Below are positions 50,645 through 62,344 of a stretch of 64,000 bases of DNA, piece after piece (position 1 is the first letter of the stretch; every line of letters begins with the position of its first letter). A program made the translations under genes and the position numbers. Origin of the DNA: Spirochaetes bacterium GWE1_32_154 (GTDB taxonomy: Bacteria > Spirochaetota > GWE2-31-10); NCBI GenBank assembly GCA_001829315.1, contig MIAY01000001.1, positions 262,927 to 326,926 on the forward strand. The letters are read 5' to 3'. The notes beneath the pieces were generated by a model, which saw only the letters and a list, made by a program, of their open reading frames with translations, was not told where the DNA came from and made no database searches.

Positions 50645-52114
50645 TTAATCTTTAGTGAAGATTTGAAATGTATCACCTGATATTTTTAGTGTCCATCCTG
50701 CATCCGGGATGAATTTGTTTTTTCCTATTCTGATAATTAATTTGTCATCAATCATAGCTGTATAGTCATCGCTTGTTGTAGTACCCACTATTTCAAAAGT
50801 ACTATTACTTTTAAGTCCTGTTGATTTTCGTAACTCAATTAATTCTTTGATTAATTCTTTAAGTGTTTTATCATATCCCTTAATTGTCATGTCAGAAATA
50901 AATTGAGCCGTTACATCAGATTTAAAGTAATGCTGCCATGCAACAGCAGGGTAACCGGGATGGGTCAGGATAAAAACATATCCTAAATAAACATGACTTT
51001 CCAGTGAATCTGTAGATTTGTGATATATTGGCCAGTGACTTTGAGTACTTCCAGTATCGTGATTATCAACAAACGTAACCGCATGCGAAGGATCTTTTCT
51101 GAATATATTGTTTTCATCATTAAGTTTTGTCATATTCCATGCTGAATTTGTTTTTGTTCCAAAAGCTTCATTCAAATTACCCTTTAAAACAAAATCAAAC
51201 GCCCTTGATTTAACACCTCCAATGTTAGCCGTTTTGTTTATCCAATCACTTATTGCGGTACTCCACTCAGAAGAATTGAATGTTTTTGTCGGCCAGTATT
51301 CACCTACTGAGAATTCCGGGTACGTTTCTTTGTTGTATAGACCAATGTATTTACCATCAAACCCTTTTACATAATCATATCTCCAGCCTTTGAAACCTAC
51401 TTCTGTTCTCATTAGGTCATACATCCAGTCAATGATTCCTTTTTTAACAATTGCGTTTGTATGGTCAAGGTCTCTAAATGCACTATAAACCTCTCCTGTA
51501 TCAGGGGAGCCTCTTTTAGTATTTTTAAACATGGGGTCACCTTTCGCTTGAGTAAAACCCTCATCTTCAGAACATATAGAATAAAAATCGTCATCCCAAA
51601 TTGGATTTGTAAAAGTACCCCAGTTTGCGCTGCCTGCTCTATGATTAATAACGATATCACCTATTGCTTTTGCCGGTGCAATGTCACTTATAGCTTGTTT
51701 TAATTCGGACTTTGATCCGTATTGGGAATCAAGGTTATTAAGTTGAGTTGGACCGTAACCTTGAGGTGCAAAATCAGGTGATATTGTTGATGGTGGAAAC
51801 CATACAATAGAAAAAGTATTAGAAATTTCAGACTTGTTGTCGCTTATTTCTTTATACCATCCCTTATTTGCCACTTTACAGCTATCCCAGTGAAAACCTT
51901 GTAGTAAAACGCCTGATTCATCAATTGTATCGGTTGTAAGTTCTTTTTTGCTTTCATACGTATAATTGTCATCAAAAGGCTTTCTCTCAATAATTAATTC
52001 TTCTACAATAGGTACATCGCTAATAGTTTGAGTTTCAGGTTCATTAGCAGGTTGATTGTCAGGACAACCTGTGAATATTAGAAGTAATAGTAATAATAAA
52101 AAGTGCTTGTTCAT
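50645..52114 (-). CDS. lipoprotein alpha-amylase (GH13)
   Basis: The 489-residue enzyme has a lipoprotein signal (LLLLLIFTGC), a short acidic linker (20-55) and a complete GH13 domain. The four conserved regions are DIVINHRAG, GWRYDYVKGF with the nucleophile Asp, FSVGEYW with the acid/base Glu, and FVDNHDTGS. The compact beta-sheet C-terminal domain ending FQIF follows directly, so the fold is complete. It resembles plant-type/bacterial alpha-amylases cutting internal alpha-1,4 bonds. As a lipoprotein it would be membrane-tethered outside the cytoplasm. It opens the glucan-related locus. Confidence 0.9.
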   Translation of the reverse strand: MNKHFLLLLLLLIFTGCPDNQPANEPETQTISDVPIVEELIIERKPFDDNYTYESKKELTTDTIDESGVLLQGFHWDSCKVANKGWYKEISDNKSEISNTFSIVWFPPSTISPDFAPQGYGPTQLNNLDSQYGSKSELKQAISDIAPAKAIGDIVINHRAGSANWGTFTNPIWDDDFYSICSEDEGFTQAKGDPMFKNTKRGSPDTGEVYSAFRDLDHTNAIVKKGIIDWMYDLMRTEVGFKGWRYDYVKGFDGKYIGLYNKETYPEFSVGEYWPTKTFNSSEWSTAISDWINKTANIGGVKSRAFDFVLKGNLNEAFGTKTNSAWNMTKLNDENNIFRKDPSHAVTFVDNHDTGSTQSHWPIYHKSTDSLESHVYLGYVFILTHPGYPAVAWQHYFKSDVTAQFISDMTIKGYDKTLKELIKELIELRKSTGLKSNSTFEIVGTTTSDDYTAMIDDKLIIRIGKNKFIPDAGWTLKISGDTFQIFTKD

Positions 52115-54412: not shown

Positions 54413-54781
54413 TTATTTCTTAAAAATTACTGAAGTAACAGCTTCTAATACTATTTTGTTATCTACAATAGATACACCTTTTGGACTTGAAATCACATCT
54501 GTTCCGGCAACTTCCTGATCAACAATAACCTGATTTAATGTTAAACCGTCTGTATTCGGGAATGAAGCATTTCTTGTTTTATCAGAATTCACAAAAACAA
54601 AATATGTGGCATCACTACCAATACATTTATACCCGACAGCCATTAACTCAGTTGATGTTTCAGTTTTGGTGTTTGTATTTGTATCTGTATTACTTGTTGG
54701 TGTACATGATACAGTAAAAAATGAAAGTGAAGTGATAATGAATAAAGCAAAAAGAATTGGTTTTATATTTTTATTTTTCAT
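54413..54781 (-). CDS. lipoprotein resembling a detached pullulanase C-terminal domain
   Basis: The 122-residue product has a lipoprotein signal (FFTVSC), a Thr/Asn linker (TNTDTNTKTETS-like) and an ~85-residue beta-rich domain. That domain reads like the end of a type I pullulanase: YFVFVNSDK, VIVDQEVAGTDVISSP, GVSIVDNKIVLEAVTSVIFK, matching the usual VDGxxAGT and V-x-ALS-x-VVL pattern. The pullulanase gene just upstream (14 bp) stops exactly where this domain should begin. The pair therefore looks like one enzyme split into a secreted catalytic part and a lipid-anchored C domain. The start is ATG with AAGGAG upstream. Confidence 0.7.
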   Translation of the reverse strand: MKNKNIKPILFALFIITSLSFFTVSCTPTSNTDTNTNTKTETSTELMAVGYKCIGSDATYFVFVNSDKTRNASFPNTDGLTLNQVIVDQEVAGTDVISSPKGVSIVDNKIVLEAVTSVIFKK

Positions 54782-54795
54782 CAATAATCTCCTTA

Positions 54796-57444
54796 TTATT
54801 TAATTACATTAATAACAGTTATATTACTGTCAATTAAAGATTTTTCGCCAAGTCTGAAAGCGTCTGTTGATTTTCTCAGTTTAATCAAACCTTTTGTATA
54901 TTCCATTGTTTTTTTACCCGGTTTTCCATCTTCAAGGAATGACCAGTTAATCATGTTGATATAATCTGAGGAATCATAAGAATCTTTTGAAACAGCCATT
55001 TCTTTATCATTGTCAAAAGGTATAATTCGTACTTTTACACCATCACCAGTTTCATTTTCAAATGATTTTGTTCTTCCCAGTTCTTGACCGGCATGCATAA
55101 AAGCTATACCTTGTGATGTTAAAAGCACCAAATTTCCCATTCTGATTCTTTTGTGAATTAATTCTTCATTTCCCGGGTCACGAGGATCTTTTGCTGTATG
55201 CATCATAATTACATCGTGAAGCGTTTCATTATCATGAGCTGCAATATATTGAACGGCTTGTCCCGGATCATTGACAACCCCTGAGTCAAGTGAAAAAGTT
55301 GCTGAATTAAAATTACCCGGTTGACCTTTAATATTAAGAAATAATTGAGCTATATCAATTACTCCGCCTGTTAGGAATTTGGGTTGATCCTCACCACCAA
55401 AACCTGATTTCATCAAATTTCTGAATTCATCGGAGAAAACTCCAATACCACTATTTTTAGTCCAGGTAAAACCAGTATAAATACCGTTTGATGAATCATT
55501 CATTTTATTCATTGCATCTTGATCAGCCCCTTTGTCTGTTGTAACACCTTCTCCTGCAAAAGTTCTCCATCCCTCTCCAATCAATAAAACTCGAGGATTA
55601 ATATTCCCGGCTGCCTTAATAACTTCCATAATAGATTCATCAGTTCCGTCACCCATCATATCAAATCTGAAACCATCGATTTTATATTCATTTAACATAT
55701 ATTTAATTGAATCTACCATGATTTTTTGAGACATTTTGTGTGTTGTAGCAAGGTTATTACCAAATCCACCTACAAAGTTACCATCTTTCATGAAGAAGTA
55801 ATAATTCGGAACTATGTCATCTAAAAAACTAGCTTTTGACATATGTGTATAAACAACATCAAGTATAACACCCATATCGTTTTGATGAATTGCATGAACA
55901 AGTTCTTTAAGTTCTTTAATTCTTACATGCGGGTCTTTTTCATCTGTTGCATACATACCTTCAGGAGTAAAATAATGATGAGGATCGAAACCCCAATTAT
56001 AATTGTTATCACCGCCGGAAATATTTGCTTCGATGGTTTTATTTGACTCGTCACCATAGTAAAAATTCATTATTGGTAGTAATTGAATGTGAGTATAACC
56101 CATAGACTTTAAATAAGGTAAATTTTGAATAAAAGCTTTATAAGTTCCTAATGGTGCAATTGGTTTAGTCACTACCGTTGCAGTTGTACCGGAAGTTTTA
56201 ACTCCCCAGAAAGATGTAAAATCTCTAACATGTACCTCATAAATAATTGCATTTTCTCTTTGTGTAAAATAAGAATTAAAATTTGCTGACGTTTCCTGAG
56301 CAAAATTCAACCCTGTTACATTTGTTGCTGAAAGATCAACAATAGCACCTTTTCCTACTGTATCTTCATCAGGAGCTCCCGTAACAACTTTTCCATCAGA
56401 ACCTACATAAAATGCAGCCATTGATTTTGCATACGGGTCAAGACAAGTTTTTTCAACACCCTCATTAGTGACTTTATATTGATAAAAGTATCCTTTTAAA
56501 TCTCCGGTTACTGTAGTTGAATAAACTCCCGGTTCGGCATTGTTTGCTTTTACAAGTGCTATTTCTCCATTAACATCTAATCCAAATTGACTACTTGCTT
56601 TTTGAATTTGATTGTTTTTGTCATAAAGAACAAGTTTTACAGAAGAGGCAGTTGGTGCCCATAATTTAAATGTTGTAGCAGTTGAAGTGTAGTTCGCACC
56701 CAAGTCGTTGCCGGTGTAATTAATTGCATCAACCAATTTATAGCCGGGGACAACCGTAATAGTTTTTGTACCATATTTTACGTTATATGGTGATTTTGTT
56801 TTATAATCGGTAGTTGCTATTGTTATTTCAGTCTGGTTGTCTTCAATAGTTGTTAGCGATGTTGCTGATATTGTAGTTCCTGTGTTATCTGTAATTGTTA
56901 ATTCTGTTACAAGCAGAGCATTAACATTTACAAATGTTAAACTAAGTTTAGTTTCAGAAACAATTTGTCCTCCAATAATTCCTTTTGCAAGAGCTTTTTC
57001 TTTACTGATGTAGCAATTAGTGTCACCCTGGAAAACCCAGATTTCTTTGTAGTCATTAACAAAGTTAAAAACATGATCCCCTGCATCCTTACTTGAGTCG
57101 CCAAGTTTTTTGTTAACTGGTACAAACCCGATTTTTTGCGCATTATCTATTAAAGGTACTTTAAAAACAGCACCAAAATCATCTGTTGTTGCATAATCTA
57201 AACCAAAAGGCCATCCTCCATTAACAAAACTGGTATCTTCCCACAACCATAATGTAAAGTCAGTGTAATCCTTTTCTGTTCGTTGATAATGCACTATCAA
57301 TTCTTCACCCGCTCTTGTTGAATTGAAAAGCTGCAACTTATTATTTACTACTCTTTGAGTGTCAGGTTGAGCATTTACAAATGTAAACAATACCAAAAAA
57401 AAACTAAGTGATAAAAAAATTTTTCCTTTAAGTTTTCTACCCAT
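54796..57444 (-). CDS. pulA: secreted type I pullulanase lacking domain C
   Basis: The 882-residue enzyme has a signal peptide cut near VNA-Q, a CBM41-like module (about 35-150), a linking domain, a CBM48 domain (about 250-350; TFKLWAPTASSVKLVLYD) and a GH13_14 catalytic barrel. The pullulanase mark YNWGFDPHHYFTPEG is present, with region II GFRFDMMGD, region III LIGEGW and region IV AAHDNETLHD. Region I is DVVYTHM, with Thr where Asn is usual. It debranches alpha-1,6 bonds. The ORF ends at FRLGEKSLIDSNITVINVIK, before the final beta domain of the family. AGGAG or GGAGG precedes the ATG. Confidence 0.92.
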   Translation of the reverse strand: MGRKLKGKIFLSLSFFLVLFTFVNAQPDTQRVVNNKLQLFNSTRAGEELIVHYQRTEKDYTDFTLWLWEDTSFVNGGWPFGLDYATTDDFGAVFKVPLIDNAQKIGFVPVNKKLGDSSKDAGDHVFNFVNDYKEIWVFQGDTNCYISKEKALAKGIIGGQIVSETKLSLTFVNVNALLVTELTITDNTGTTISATSLTTIEDNQTEITIATTDYKTKSPYNVKYGTKTITVVPGYKLVDAINYTGNDLGANYTSTATTFKLWAPTASSVKLVLYDKNNQIQKASSQFGLDVNGEIALVKANNAEPGVYSTTVTGDLKGYFYQYKVTNEGVEKTCLDPYAKSMAAFYVGSDGKVVTGAPDEDTVGKGAIVDLSATNVTGLNFAQETSANFNSYFTQRENAIIYEVHVRDFTSFWGVKTSGTTATVVTKPIAPLGTYKAFIQNLPYLKSMGYTHIQLLPIMNFYYGDESNKTIEANISGGDNNYNWGFDPHHYFTPEGMYATDEKDPHVRIKELKELVHAIHQNDMGVILDVVYTHMSKASFLDDIVPNYYFFMKDGNFVGGFGNNLATTHKMSQKIMVDSIKYMLNEYKIDGFRFDMMGDGTDESIMEVIKAAGNINPRVLLIGEGWRTFAGEGVTTDKGADQDAMNKMNDSSNGIYTGFTWTKNSGIGVFSDEFRNLMKSGFGGEDQPKFLTGGVIDIAQLFLNIKGQPGNFNSATFSLDSGVVNDPGQAVQYIAAHDNETLHDVIMMHTAKDPRDPGNEELIHKRIRMGNLVLLTSQGIAFMHAGQELGRTKSFENETGDGVKVRIIPFDNDKEMAVSKDSYDSSDYINMINWSFLEDGKPGKKTMEYTKGLIKLRKSTDAFRLGEKSLIDSNITVINVIK

Positions 57445-57587: not shown

Positions 57588-57616
57588 TTGACGATATGTA
57601 ATATTAGATTTATAAT
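57588..57616 (+). promoter_or_regulatory. strong sigma70-like promoter for the CBM48 lipoprotein operon
   Basis: TTGACG (57588-57593), 17 bases, TATAAT (57611-57616), with a start expected about 55 bp before the lipoprotein ATG and GGGGG as its ribosome site. The rest of 57445-57679 is AT-rich; on the minus strand TATAAT at 57471-57476 could serve pullulanase. Confidence 0.75.
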
Positions 57617-57679: not shown

Positions 57680-58114
57680 ATGAAAAGAATTTTATCCGTA
57701 TTATCACTCATTGCTGCTGTTATGATGATAGCAAGTTGTGAAGGTGGAGCAGAAACAACAGCGACAACAAAAGCGACTGCACTTCCTTTACATGGTTATA
57801 CTATCGCAGGTAACGACATAACTTTTTACATGAATGAAGTAGATTATCCTTCATTCGACGAAGTTGAGTCAATGACTCTTGCTGGTGAATTTAATGGTTG
57901 GGATCCTGCTGCAGCTGAATGGCAAATGACAGATGATGATGGCGACAAAGTGTGGGAATTCAAGACAACTCTTGACAAAACACCGGTTGGATCAAAATTC
58001 AAGTATGTTTCAAATCAAGTTGACTGGAATCAGCCTGCTGCTGACAAACTTGACAAAAAATATCTTGCTGACGATGGTTTTGGTGGTTTTAACTTAGTTA
58101 TTGTAGCTGAGTAA
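57680..58114 (+). CDS. CBM48/AMPK-beta-like glycogen-binding lipoprotein
   Basis: The 144-residue product has a lipoprotein signal (MMIASC), a Thr/Ala linker and one domain with the hallmark of CBM48/AMPK-beta glycogen-binding modules: LAGEFNGWDPAA, then DDDGDKVWEF, SKFKYVSNQVDWNQP. No catalytic domain is attached. It is probably an abundant membrane-anchored starch or glycogen binder. It heads a unit ending with the beta-barrel gene, and a hairpin lies after its stop. Confidence 0.85.
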   Translation: MKRILSVLSLIAAVMMIASCEGGAETTATTKATALPLHGYTIAGNDITFYMNEVDYPSFDEVESMTLAGEFNGWDPAAAEWQMTDDDGDKVWEFKTTLDKTPVGSKFKYVSNQVDWNQPAADKLDKKYLADDGFGGFNLVIVAE

Positions 58115-58122
58115 CGTTAATT

Positions 58123-58158
58123 TAAAGTTCAGGCTGTATAATTACAGCCTGAACTTTA
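58123..58158 (+). terminator. intercistronic hairpin after the CBM48 lipoprotein
   Basis: Perfect 16-base arms (TAAAGTTCAGGCTGTA) enclose the loop TAAT. The T-run that follows is weak (TTAATTTTAA), so it may be a partial terminator or an RNA-stabilising stem. Confidence 0.65.
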
Positions 58159-58180: not shown

Positions 58181-58390
58181 ATGAAAAAAACTATTATGTC
58201 TTTTCTATGCATTATTACTTTTCTTTTAGGAATTATGTCCTGTCAAGTTTATTCACAGAAAGGTGATCGGGTTCTTGTTAATTATCAGAATTACAAATAT
58301 GGTATAGACGAGGGGACTGATAAGACTGATATGACAACTGATGACAATTGGGATGCTTCTTTTCCTGTAGATTGGGATCAACCAAGATAA
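58181..58390 (+). CDS. short putative lipoprotein (69 residues)
   Basis: The product has a lipoprotein signal (LLGIMSC) and only about 48 mature residues, ending NWDASFPVDWDQPR. The VDWDQP tail recalls VDWNQP in the CBM48 lipoprotein before it, so it may be a truncated duplicate or a short aromatic peptide that binds glucan. AAGGAGG precedes the ATG. It is followed 33 bp later by the beta-barrel gene. Confidence 0.65.
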   Translation: MKKTIMSFLCIITFLLGIMSCQVYSQKGDRVLVNYQNYKYGIDEGTDKTDMTTDDNWDASFPVDWDQPR

Positions 58391-58423: not shown

Positions 58424-61045
58424 ATGAAAAAACTTACGAGTTTTCTGATTGCTGTTTTTATGTTGTTTAGCGTTATGTTAGTTGATGCTAAAGTGTCTTA
58501 TAGTGAAAAAAATGGTGTTTGGTTTGTTACTATTACATATAAAAATGATGATGTTGGTGCAATGAATCTTATTGGTACATTAACTAATGATTGGTTAGTT
58601 CCCGGAGTGCCTATGGCTAAAAATGCTGATGGTAGATGGGAAATTACAATGGAAATGAAAAGAGCAAAAGAATTTTATAAATTCTATAATCCTGCTATGT
58701 CCGGTGATATTGCATATATAGAAGATCCGGAACCGGATGAAGAAGTTGCCAATCCTTTTGGTTCAAAAAACGCTGTTTTAAGAAGACCAAAAGCCGGAGC
58801 AGTTGCTGGGGCTTCTGCCGGTACTGCTGAAGAAGAATATCCGAAGTTAAGTTTTGGTATGTGGTCAAGAAATTATTATCTAATGAGATTTGGTTCTCAA
58901 TTGTCTCAAAAAGTTTCTTATGATAAGAATGGAGATATTGCTTCTGGGGATGACAATACTACTGACAAAATGCCTTTAACAGGTTATGCAGTTAGAGATA
59001 AAGATTTAACTAAAAGATGGCAGGGTGAATATGGAACGACTAAGGATAATGCAACAAGAGTTTGGTTGCAAAGTCATAAGTTAAGATCATCCAGTACATG
59101 GAAGGTTCATGGTTTAGCGCTAAAACATTTACAGTTAGATGCTGAAGTTAATTGTAACTATAGTTTAAATGTATCGTATAATTCATACTGGTCAACAAAA
59201 GGAAATGATAATTCAAGATACGAAGCTTTAGAACTTATTAATAGGGGTGCTGGAAGTGGTATTATGAATCTTTTCCTTGGTCCTATTGCAAAGAATGGGG
59301 CATGGGGTAGATGGGTTGGAGAAAAAACAGGAGAATGGGGGACAAACGATAATGGAATCTGGATAGATCAGATTGTAATAAGTTTTCCTTTTGATGATTT
59401 TGAAGTTAAGCTTGGCGTTCTTGGTAATAATGCTTACAGATCTAAAGATCCTATGAAATTATTGTCAGGTAAAAGAACTGGTGATAAAGAAGATATTGCT
59501 ACAAATGTAGAATTGATTGTACATCCTACTAAAATAAAAGGTTTAAATCTTGCAATTGGCGGGGCGCATTCATGGAGAGATGATACAGGTGGTGAAGGTG
59601 ATTTTAAAGATACGGTAAATGCAAACAGCAGAAAATTCATGACTTATTTTGATGCCAGTTATACACTATCTGTTGTAGAATTTGGGTATATGAATTATTT
59701 TACATCATGGTCACCTATGGCAATAGATATGTTTGCAAATGGTGATATGACTCAAGGGCTTTGGGCAAGAATTAAACCAGTAAAAGGTTTAATTATAGAA
59801 TTACAAGGTGCTAATCAATTATCTACTGTTTATTTAGATTCTACTGCAGTAAATGATGTTAATAATTATGTTCTATATAGAACAAAGAAAACAGGATTTG
59901 ATTTTCTAGCTAACTCAGCAATAATGGCATCAGTATCTTATGTAATGCCTGGTTTCTTTGATGTTGCTTATACGCTAGCTGCCGGTGGAACGATGTTCAA
60001 AGGTAATCTTGGTGCTGAAGACGGAAGATTCTCAGGTTGGGATGATTCAGATAGAAGAGTTGTTGGTACAAAGAATTATTCTTCTAAGTTAGTTCCTTAT
60101 TATTACAATAATAGAGGATCTCAAATAAGTAATAAAATTGATCTTTCAATAGCTCCGTTAAAAAATGACTTGATTAAAATTGGTTATACTCATGATTTAG
60201 TTATAGGAAAGCTTGATAATGTTATTGGATTGGCTAAGGAAGATAAATACGATTATTATGATAATGGTATCGGTTTACAAACTAATAAAATTCAAATTGA
60301 TAATTTGTTCAATCCTTCTATATCTTCTAAAGTTAATAAAGATTTAAGTTTAGTAGCAGCAACACAATTTTCTTTAACTATGTATCAAGATGAACTTCAA
60401 AGAATTGACGGGAAAGATAAAAGTTATAAAATGGCCACAGCATTTACTTTTAATAAAGCAAAAGTTGGATTAAAGGTGTCAAATATTTCAAAAATATTAA
60501 AAAGTGTTAATCTTGACTATACTCTTGAATTTCAGTACTATCCGGGATATTATGAAAATGGTACTACAAAAACATGGGAGATTATGGGGAATTCAATTCA
60601 ATGGAAGAATTTTTATAATCAGATAGTAGGAACTATGTATTTTGATAAGGATATTAGTCTTGGACTTGGTTTTATTGTAAGAAATTTTAGAGGGGATCAA
60701 CGAGACGGAAATGTTCAAAACCAGTTTAATCCTGAATTAATGAAAAAATTAGTTGATGCGGGACAAAGAACAACAGCAGATCTTGAAAATTTTTATACTG
60801 CTATTGTTTATTATTGGAATATTGGTGGAGCACTTCAATTTAAATGGAAATTACCATTTGATGATATTGCAAATCCAACTTTTTTTGCCAATATTGGTTT
60901 AGGTTGGGATCCTTTTGCTGAGGATAATGATACTACAATGGATTTCAGAGAAGATAAAACAAGTCCTATGTGGACAAGGGGTTTAACTAATAATTGGAAA
61001 TCAGAGGCAAGCATTGTAGCTTTTGGACTTCAATGGGCATTTTAA
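58424..61045 (+). CDS. outer-membrane beta-barrel with N-terminal CBM48-like module
   Basis: The 873-residue protein has a signal peptide (FLIAVFMLFSVMLVDA) and an N-terminal domain (about 24-125) of E-set/CBM48 character: MNLIGTLTNDWLVPGVPMAK, ADGRWEITMEM, AKEFYKFYNP. A Gly/Ala linker follows (AGAVAGASAGTAEE), then about 720 residues of alternating amphipathic strands rich in Tyr, Trp and Gly (LSVSYNSYWS-type). The last residues are FGLQWAF, the C-terminal aromatic expected of BAM substrates. I infer a glucan-binding porin. No family is recognised for the barrel. Confidence 0.72.
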   Translation: MKKLTSFLIAVFMLFSVMLVDAKVSYSEKNGVWFVTITYKNDDVGAMNLIGTLTNDWLVPGVPMAKNADGRWEITMEMKRAKEFYKFYNPAMSGDIAYIEDPEPDEEVANPFGSKNAVLRRPKAGAVAGASAGTAEEEYPKLSFGMWSRNYYLMRFGSQLSQKVSYDKNGDIASGDDNTTDKMPLTGYAVRDKDLTKRWQGEYGTTKDNATRVWLQSHKLRSSSTWKVHGLALKHLQLDAEVNCNYSLNVSYNSYWSTKGNDNSRYEALELINRGAGSGIMNLFLGPIAKNGAWGRWVGEKTGEWGTNDNGIWIDQIVISFPFDDFEVKLGVLGNNAYRSKDPMKLLSGKRTGDKEDIATNVELIVHPTKIKGLNLAIGGAHSWRDDTGGEGDFKDTVNANSRKFMTYFDASYTLSVVEFGYMNYFTSWSPMAIDMFANGDMTQGLWARIKPVKGLIIELQGANQLSTVYLDSTAVNDVNNYVLYRTKKTGFDFLANSAIMASVSYVMPGFFDVAYTLAAGGTMFKGNLGAEDGRFSGWDDSDRRVVGTKNYSSKLVPYYYNNRGSQISNKIDLSIAPLKNDLIKIGYTHDLVIGKLDNVIGLAKEDKYDYYDNGIGLQTNKIQIDNLFNPSISSKVNKDLSLVAATQFSLTMYQDELQRIDGKDKSYKMATAFTFNKAKVGLKVSNISKILKSVNLDYTLEFQYYPGYYENGTTKTWEIMGNSIQWKNFYNQIVGTMYFDKDISLGLGFIVRNFRGDQRDGNVQNQFNPELMKKLVDAGQRTTADLENFYTAIVYYWNIGGALQFKWKLPFDDIANPTFFANIGLGWDPFAEDNDTTMDFREDKTSPMWTRGLTNNWKSEASIVAFGLQWAF

Positions 61046-61071: not shown

Positions 61072-61596
61072 ATGAAAATAAATATGATGAAAATTCTGTT
61101 TATTCTAACTATTATTTTATCAATGATGTCTTGTAATATAAGTTCTGAATTACCAGAATTGGGTGATATAACGATAAAATTTATAAATTGTACTATAAAA
61201 GGAAAACCCGTGGAAGGTTCGGCAACTATAGCAGGAGCATTTGCTCCTGCATATGGTGTTGAATGGATTGATTGTCTTGATGATGAGCGTTTTAAAATGA
61301 CGTTTAAATCTGGAACAGCTGAGTTTATTGTTAAAGAATGGCCAATTGCTAATGAACTTCAGTTTCAGGTGATGGGGGGGTTTCCGGCAGGCTGGGATCC
61401 TAAATTAGATAATCTTCATTCTTATGAGAATACAAGATATAATTTTAAAAATCCTGATGATTTATTTAATTTAAATGGTGGTGATTATCTTCTTTTTGAT
61501 GGTAATCAGCCATATGTTAAAGGTGCCGCAGAAGCTGGATATTATGGTCAAATTCAAAGAAAAGCAAAAAACGATCCACCTGAGTGGGTTAAATAA
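61072..61596 (+). CDS. putative lipoprotein in the glucan locus (174 residues)
   Basis: The signal has lipobox LSMMSC. The mature part looks like an all-beta domain with aromatic clusters (VEWIDCLDDERFKMTF, FIVKEWP, MGGFPAGWDPKL) that could bind carbohydrate. AAAGGAGG before the ATG at 61072 decides the start; the ORF extends upstream into the barrel gene's end without a site. The barrel gene stops 26 bp before it and a terminator follows it. Confidence 0.7.
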   Translation: MKINMMKILFILTIILSMMSCNISSELPELGDITIKFINCTIKGKPVEGSATIAGAFAPAYGVEWIDCLDDERFKMTFKSGTAEFIVKEWPIANELQFQVMGGFPAGWDPKLDNLHSYENTRYNFKNPDDLFNLNGGDYLLFDGNQPYVKGAAEAGYYGQIQRKAKNDPPEWVK

Positions 61597-61699: not shown

Positions 61700-62344
61700 A
61701 TGAAAAAGAATTTTTTAAGAGTTTTAGCAACATTGATGACAGTTGCTATGATGAGTTTTTTGGTTGCTTGTCCTGACACAACAACAACAACAACAGCTGC
61801 TGATGAAATTAAATATTCTGATGCAACAGGTATTGAAGTAACAGTAGAAGTTGCTAAATTGAACGATCATCTACAATTGAAGGGTACTACAGAAACTAAT
61901 GCGCAAGCTGCTTCATTAGTTGCTACTGGTTATACACCACTTCTTATTGGTGGAATTACAATGGGTGCTGATGCCGCAAATGATGCTGCTTTTGTAACTA
62001 ATTTCTGGAATACAAATGCTCTTAAAATGACAGGATCAAATGGTGTTTTTAAAGTTAAAGTTCCTAAGTCATATATCGACCTTGCAGGTGGATGGGGTGG
62101 TGTTGCTGATACATCATTTACTGTAAAAGTTGTATTTGTTAAAGATGCTCTTGTTTCTACTATTCCTGCTGCTAGTGGAGATGCTGTAATGTTTACTGAT
62201 GCAGCTGTAACATATGTTTATTCTGATGCTGCACAAGATAATGGTGTTGTTACTTTAGCTGATTTAAATAAAGTTAACGCAACTGTTGTTCCTACTGGTA
62301 AAGTTGCTCCTTATGATGGTGTTTCTATTAAATGCTATAAATAA
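61700..62344 (+). CDS. putative lipoprotein in the glucan locus (214 residues)
   Basis: The signal has lipobox FLVAC, then a run of Thr (PDTTTTTTAADE) and an all-beta domain (IEVTVEVAKLNDHLQL, GVFKVKVPKSYIDL, SFTVKVVFVKDA). No family is recognised. It has its own strong promoter and terminator, and its codon use favours GCT and GTT, which suggests high expression. Position and form recall the small accessory binding lipoproteins (SusE/F) of other starch systems, but no homology to them is claimed. Confidence 0.75.
   Translation: MKKNFLRVLATLMTVAMMSFLVACPDTTTTTTAADEIKYSDATGIEVTVEVAKLNDHLQLKGTTETNAQAASLVATGYTPLLIGGITMGADAANDAAFVTNFWNTNALKMTGSNGVFKVKVPKSYIDLAGGWGGVADTSFTVKVVFVKDALVSTIPAASGDAVMFTDAAVTYVYSDAAQDNGVVTLADLNKVNATVVPTGKVAPYDGVSIKCYK

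Follow-up and report, generated by a model that had tools for sequence, protein, structure and literature searches.

We describe a protein of Spirochaetes bacterium GWE1_32_154 in which, on sequence and modeling evidence, a CBM48-type glucan-binding domain is fused to a large outer-membrane beta-barrel. It is encoded by the open reading frame 58424-61045 of the window, i.e., the whole stretch of 64,000 nucleotides that was analyzed. On balance, we lean towards the view that this protein serves, in the outer membrane, a system by which Spirochaetota take up alpha-glucan (starch, glycogen, or maltodextrin).

Most of what is known about how glycans cross the outer membrane comes from Bacteroidota (SusCD) and Proteobacteria (LamB). 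Among the saccharolytic bacteria of rumen and gut, spirochaetes are common. With a sugar-binding module fused to the barrel, directional capture at an outer-membrane channel could be tested directly. In the openly licensed literature, we found neither a description of a CBM48-barrel fusion nor an outer-membrane starch transporter of spirochaetes. To our knowledge, CBM48 domains occur on GH13 enzymes, on glucan phosphatases, or in AMPK, and never on an outer-membrane barrel. Our analysis suggests that this fusion, undescribed as far as that literature shows, belongs among the outer-membrane glycan-uptake barrels.

The Barrel Gene and Its Cluster

The barrel gene, of which the genome holds a single copy, and the surrounding features of the window are as follows:

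50645..52114, - strand: alpha-amylase lipoprotein
54413..54784, - strand: separate lipoprotein corresponding to the pullulanase C-terminal (SpuA_C) domain
54796..57444, - strand: pullulanase with PUD, CBM48, and GH13 domains, divergent
57588..57616, + strand: promoter-like TTGACG-17-TATAAT upstream of the cluster (consensus match only)
57680..58114, + strand: 144-aa lipoprotein with a weak CBM48/X25-like domain, below the Pfam cut-off
58123..58158, + strand: strong 16-bp hairpin followed by a T-rich tract, between the first lipoprotein gene and the barrel gene
58181..58390, + strand: 69-aa lipoprotein with a GIMSC lipobox, directly 5' of the barrel gene
58424..61045, + strand: barrel gene, intact, 873-aa product
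58424..58489, + strand: residues 1-22, predicted type I Sec signal peptide without lipobox (from sequence)
58490..58789, + strand: residues 23-122, CBM48/AMPK-type glucan-binding domain
58790..58843, + strand: residues ~123-140, flexible Ala/Gly/Ser/Glu linker
58844..61045, + strand: residues 141-873 (~730 residues), outer-membrane beta-barrel region with ~24 predicted strands
61072..61596, + strand: 174-aa partner lipoprotein with an SMMSC lipobox, directly 3' of the barrel gene
61700..62344, + strand: 214-aa lipoprotein, weakly similar to a lipoprotein of the equivalent cluster L070
62588..64000, + strand: GH13 alpha-amylase-like lipoprotein, continuing beyond the window end

A good ribosome-binding site (GGGGG) precedes the ATG of the barrel gene, whose product starts with the Sec signal peptide MKKLTSFLIAVFMLFSVMLVDA. 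Loci L022, L023, L024, and L070 all carry, at the equivalent places, an ortholog of the 144-aa lipoprotein and a small lipoprotein where the window has the 69-aa one. The hairpin is a possible terminator or attenuator, perhaps giving more lipoprotein than barrel.

The N-Terminal CBM48-Type Domain

Searches of the window protein against Pfam and NCBIfam returned zero matches, so that its own N-terminal domain lies below detection. The domain is recognized through its relatives, to which it is 33-61% identical in the domain alignment. Four of them (L025, L026, L028, and L005) exceed the gathering score of CBM_48 (PF02922). At E ≤ 0.01, CBM_48 is recognized in 24 of 30 full-length relatives and AMPK1_CBM in 20. 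The family profile also finds the carbohydrate-binding structure of AMPK-beta1 (1z0n) and a type II pullulanase, both at 6e-10 and both through the N-terminal domain only.

Mutants of AMPK in W100, K126, and W133 show reduced glycogen binding (PMC2642990). When AMPK-beta1 is aligned with the window protein, W100, K126, W133, and N150 correspond to W57, K86, Y98, and N116; the numbering of the AMPK-beta1 sequence in this alignment agrees with the residues named in PMC2642990. Together with F112 and S114, these four make up the putative binding residues of the window domain. Among 29 full-length members, the tryptophan, the lysine, and the aromatic position (W or Y) are present in all 29 and the asparagine in 27, and few columns of the domain are as conserved as the putative contact positions. 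The domain is homologous to the CBM48 and AMPK-beta modules (PF02922, PF16561) with the W/K/W(Y)/N set retained, which agrees with the CBM48/E-set features that the original prediction had read in this region. Among the sequence arguments for continued alpha-glucan binding by the domain, the retention of AMPK-type contact residues is the strongest. In the relative from G005, a tandem and nearly identical CBM48 pair precedes the barrel (L005 1045-3942, the same as L070 8752-11649), a duplication that is expected if a binding module gains avidity.

The CBM48 domain also occurs alone. In G003, a 139-aa protein (L008 1483-1902), ~54% identical to the window N-terminal domain, has no barrel after it and bears a Sec signal peptide only, without lipobox. 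Its sequence is consistent with a soluble periplasmic location, and the gene could be a remnant.

The Predicted Barrel

The original prediction had also noticed a large barrel-like region ending in Phe, and several lines of evidence uphold this. The alternation of hydrophobicity over residues 141-873 stands at z = 2.9 above shuffles; it ranges from 2.5 to 4.8 in the family versus -1.5 to 0.5 in five soluble controls. The window protein ends in GLQWAF, a canonical outer-membrane beta-signal, and an outer-membrane C-signal with an aromatic or aliphatic end, mostly W[DNS][FLI], is found in all 29 members. At the sequence level, the Sec signal, the amphipathic strands, and the C-terminal aromatic beta-signal are those of an outer-membrane beta-barrel protein. 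The barrel region is without a match among the sequence families of Pfam and the PDB.

AlphaFold2, run on the window protein with a 10-sequence alignment, gave a model (mean pLDDT 49) whose barrel region has 24 long strands. This model being too weak alone, we also modeled the compact paralog L026, which again shows 24 strands (pLDDT 63). Both counts were taken from DSSP lists, and both models form a strand meander. The 50 best Foldseek matches of each model are outer-membrane proteins: MOMP, AlgE, SusC, and OccAB for the window model, and pilus ushers, PfeA, OccAB, and chitoporin for the L026 model, with low TM-scores that support the fold class and not one specific family. Structure prediction, by which the original prediction had proposed to check for a closed barrel, therefore favors ~24 strands and an outer-membrane fold, while pLDDT values of 49 and 63 leave closure and the exact strand number uncertain. 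From the fold class and the gene context, the barrel is probably a channel.

Distribution in Spirochaetota

A first scan of genome contigs with the single protein found nothing; a four-member alignment then gave relatives, and all eight confirmed matches among those listed belong to Spirochaetota. Among the matches listed, the nearest relatives come from uncultivated Spirochaetota: a 934-aa protein of the sheep-rumen MAG RGIG6909 (48% identity) and those of GWB1_27_13 (940 aa), G005 (965 aa), and HAN109 (ending at a contig edge). A ten-member profile matched 84 of 393 Spirochaetota genomes, many of them by the CBM48 domain only, and the CBM48-barrel fusion itself occurs in close to 30 genomes from at least 10 families of the phylum. 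QR_Bin.15 and Zod_Metabat.547 each carry two tandem paralogs, and RGIG9060 carries several. The design is widespread across Spirochaetota and not a one-off. Viral contigs yielded no relatives of the barrel protein.

Gene Context across the Family

The barrel family sits in alpha-glucan loci, phylum-wide. Of 20 family loci, 15 have GH13 genes within their 20 kb, versus 1 of 20 control loci from the same genomes (Fisher p = 1e-5, an optimistic value because the family loci are phylogenetically related and such tests overstate their independence). The five remaining family loci have no GH13 match when the enzymes of the window are used as queries. In all 25 members that have a directly downstream same-strand gene, this gene encodes a lipoprotein, versus 12 of 110 control gene pairs. 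These downstream partners are short, diverse, and Trp-rich; one contains a CBM26 and another has a sub-threshold X25 match. At five loci, and at none of the controls, genes for MalE-, MalF-, and MalG-like ABC proteins flank the barrel gene; this linkage occurs in a single family (f19), at some of its loci only, and was not observed at the window cluster.

At two loci, a LacI-family regulator gene adjoins the barrel gene in divergent orientation (L071 10860-11879 and L076 8443-9456). It is a candidate maltose-type regulator.

Comparison with Known Systems

As in the Sus systems of Bacteroidota, where SusC/SusD act with the starch-binding lipoproteins SusE/SusF, a barrel gene stands beside a lipoprotein gene, and glycan-binding surface-type lipoproteins and GH13 enzymes share one starch locus. 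On the contrary, this barrel has neither a Plug/TonB-receptor domain nor similarity to SusC, its partners are not SusD, and it bears a CBM48 of its own. The Plug profile (PF07715) matched none of 30 family members, and we thus rejected a SusC/TonB receptor; four TonB-dependent receptor Plug proteins are encoded elsewhere in this genome. As the SusD-like_3 profile (PF14322) had no match in this genome, we also rejected SusD as the identity of the partner lipoprotein.

The likeness to LamB and MalEFGK lies in a proposed maltodextrin channel feeding a MalEFG-type importer, relatives of which are found in the cluster in several genomes. The protein differs from LamB by its ~24 predicted strands, versus 18, and by the additional N-terminal CBM48. 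The LamB profile (PF02264) matched nothing in the barrel family, which excludes LamB as its identity, nor in this genome and 40 relatives (41 genomes). With no LamB and no SusD-like_3 match, this genome shows no sign of either classical route of starch uptake. In architecture, the protein recalls BamA with its POTRA domains, LptD with its jelly roll, and the ushers with their N-terminal domain, in which a soluble beta domain also precedes a large C-terminal barrel. Unlike these, which handle proteins or lipids, its domain is predicted to be a sugar-binding module.

Another Spirochaetota genome does have a clear SusD-like_3 match (L105, G009:C315:4729-5334, E 1.7e-24), which may reflect the transfer of a Sus system, or else contamination.

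Proposed Role and Orientation

In the uptake system that we favor, the GH13 lipoproteins and the glucan-binding lipoproteins encoded alongside, presumably at the cell surface, would capture and trim starch, and maltodextrins would cross the outer membrane through the large C-terminal barrel, as the fold class and gene context lead us to infer. The CBM48 on its flexible linker would bind the emerging alpha-1,4-glucan, hold it, and pass it on to enzymes of the periplasm and an ABC importer of the MalE type. The presence of MalEFG genes in the cluster with the barrel, in several genomes, is expected of such an uptake chain.

The N-terminal domain most likely lies on the periplasmic side, because it precedes the first strand and the predicted number of strands is even, as in ordinary outer-membrane topology. 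From there, it would bias the glucan flux inward. The original prediction had a porin with its own glucan-binding module concentrate maltodextrins at the pore: the module on the barrel is supported, but a role at the outer mouth is less likely, since an even count of ~24 strands would place the module in the periplasm, to capture or retain incoming glucan. That interpretation was right in kind, with the orientation probably reversed. A more ambitious and still tentative proposal is that of an undescribed phylum-wide class of outer-membrane glycan importers, separate from SusC/SusD and LamB: a wide barrel would work with a glucan-binding lipoprotein, and its own periplasmic CBM48 would act as a trap that pulls starch chains inward across the outer membrane.

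Alternative Readings

The CBM48 could instead be threaded through the pore and displayed at the surface like an autotransporter passenger, gripping starch and concentrating maltodextrins at the pore mouth. We consider this unlikely. In classical autotransporters, the passenger is N-terminal to a barrel of 12 strands. The order of domains is the same here, and a flexible linker, 20-40 residues long across the family, is long enough for threading; modeling of the T. pallidum FadL proteins, moreover, predicts hatches that extend to the outer surface (PMC8407342). Yet the barrel has ~24 predicted strands and not 12, a domain before the first strand is usually periplasmic, as POTRA, the usher N-domain, and the LptD jelly roll illustrate, and the close relative L008, standing alone with a Sec signal peptide and no lipobox, appears soluble.

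It is still less probable that the barrel is an anchor or scaffold, with the CBM48 and the partner lipoproteins tethering GH13 enzymes or starch granules to the cell while glucan fragments enter elsewhere. Barrels of about 24 strands are frequently closed or blocked by a plug, all members tested for it have the partner lipoprotein (25/25), and the genome has the four TonB-dependent receptor plugs mentioned above. Against this, no SusD-like_3 or LamB was found in the genome, and MalEFG shares the cluster of the barrel in several others.

We also regard as very improbable that the CBM48 sits in the barrel lumen as a plug or gate, much as the Ig-like plug of pilus ushers does, and is freed when it binds glucan. 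Wide barrels need gating, and 24-stranded ushers are the top Foldseek matches of the L026 model. However, an N-terminal position would resemble that of a TonB-receptor plug, to which the domain has no similarity; the two tandem CBM48 copies of G005 would not fit one lumen; and the AlphaFold2 models place no domain confidently.

That the domain is now an E-set fold with a role in assembly or protein contacts only, without sugar binding, is the least credible reading: many E-set domains are structural and the window copy falls under Pfam thresholds, yet its putative ligand-contact positions stand among its most conserved columns.

Further Observations in and around the Window

The pullulanase of the window is split (54413-57444, - strand): its catalytic open reading frame has no C-terminal domain, and this domain, SpuA_C, is encoded after it by a separate reading frame that has a GGAG site, a signal peptide, and a lipobox (SFFTVSC) of its own. 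In related pullulanases, the SpuA_C domain forms the C-terminus of a single chain. Finally, ~18 kb to the right of the window end, a CotH-like lipoprotein with a CBM48-like C-terminal segment is encoded (L003 16904-19001).
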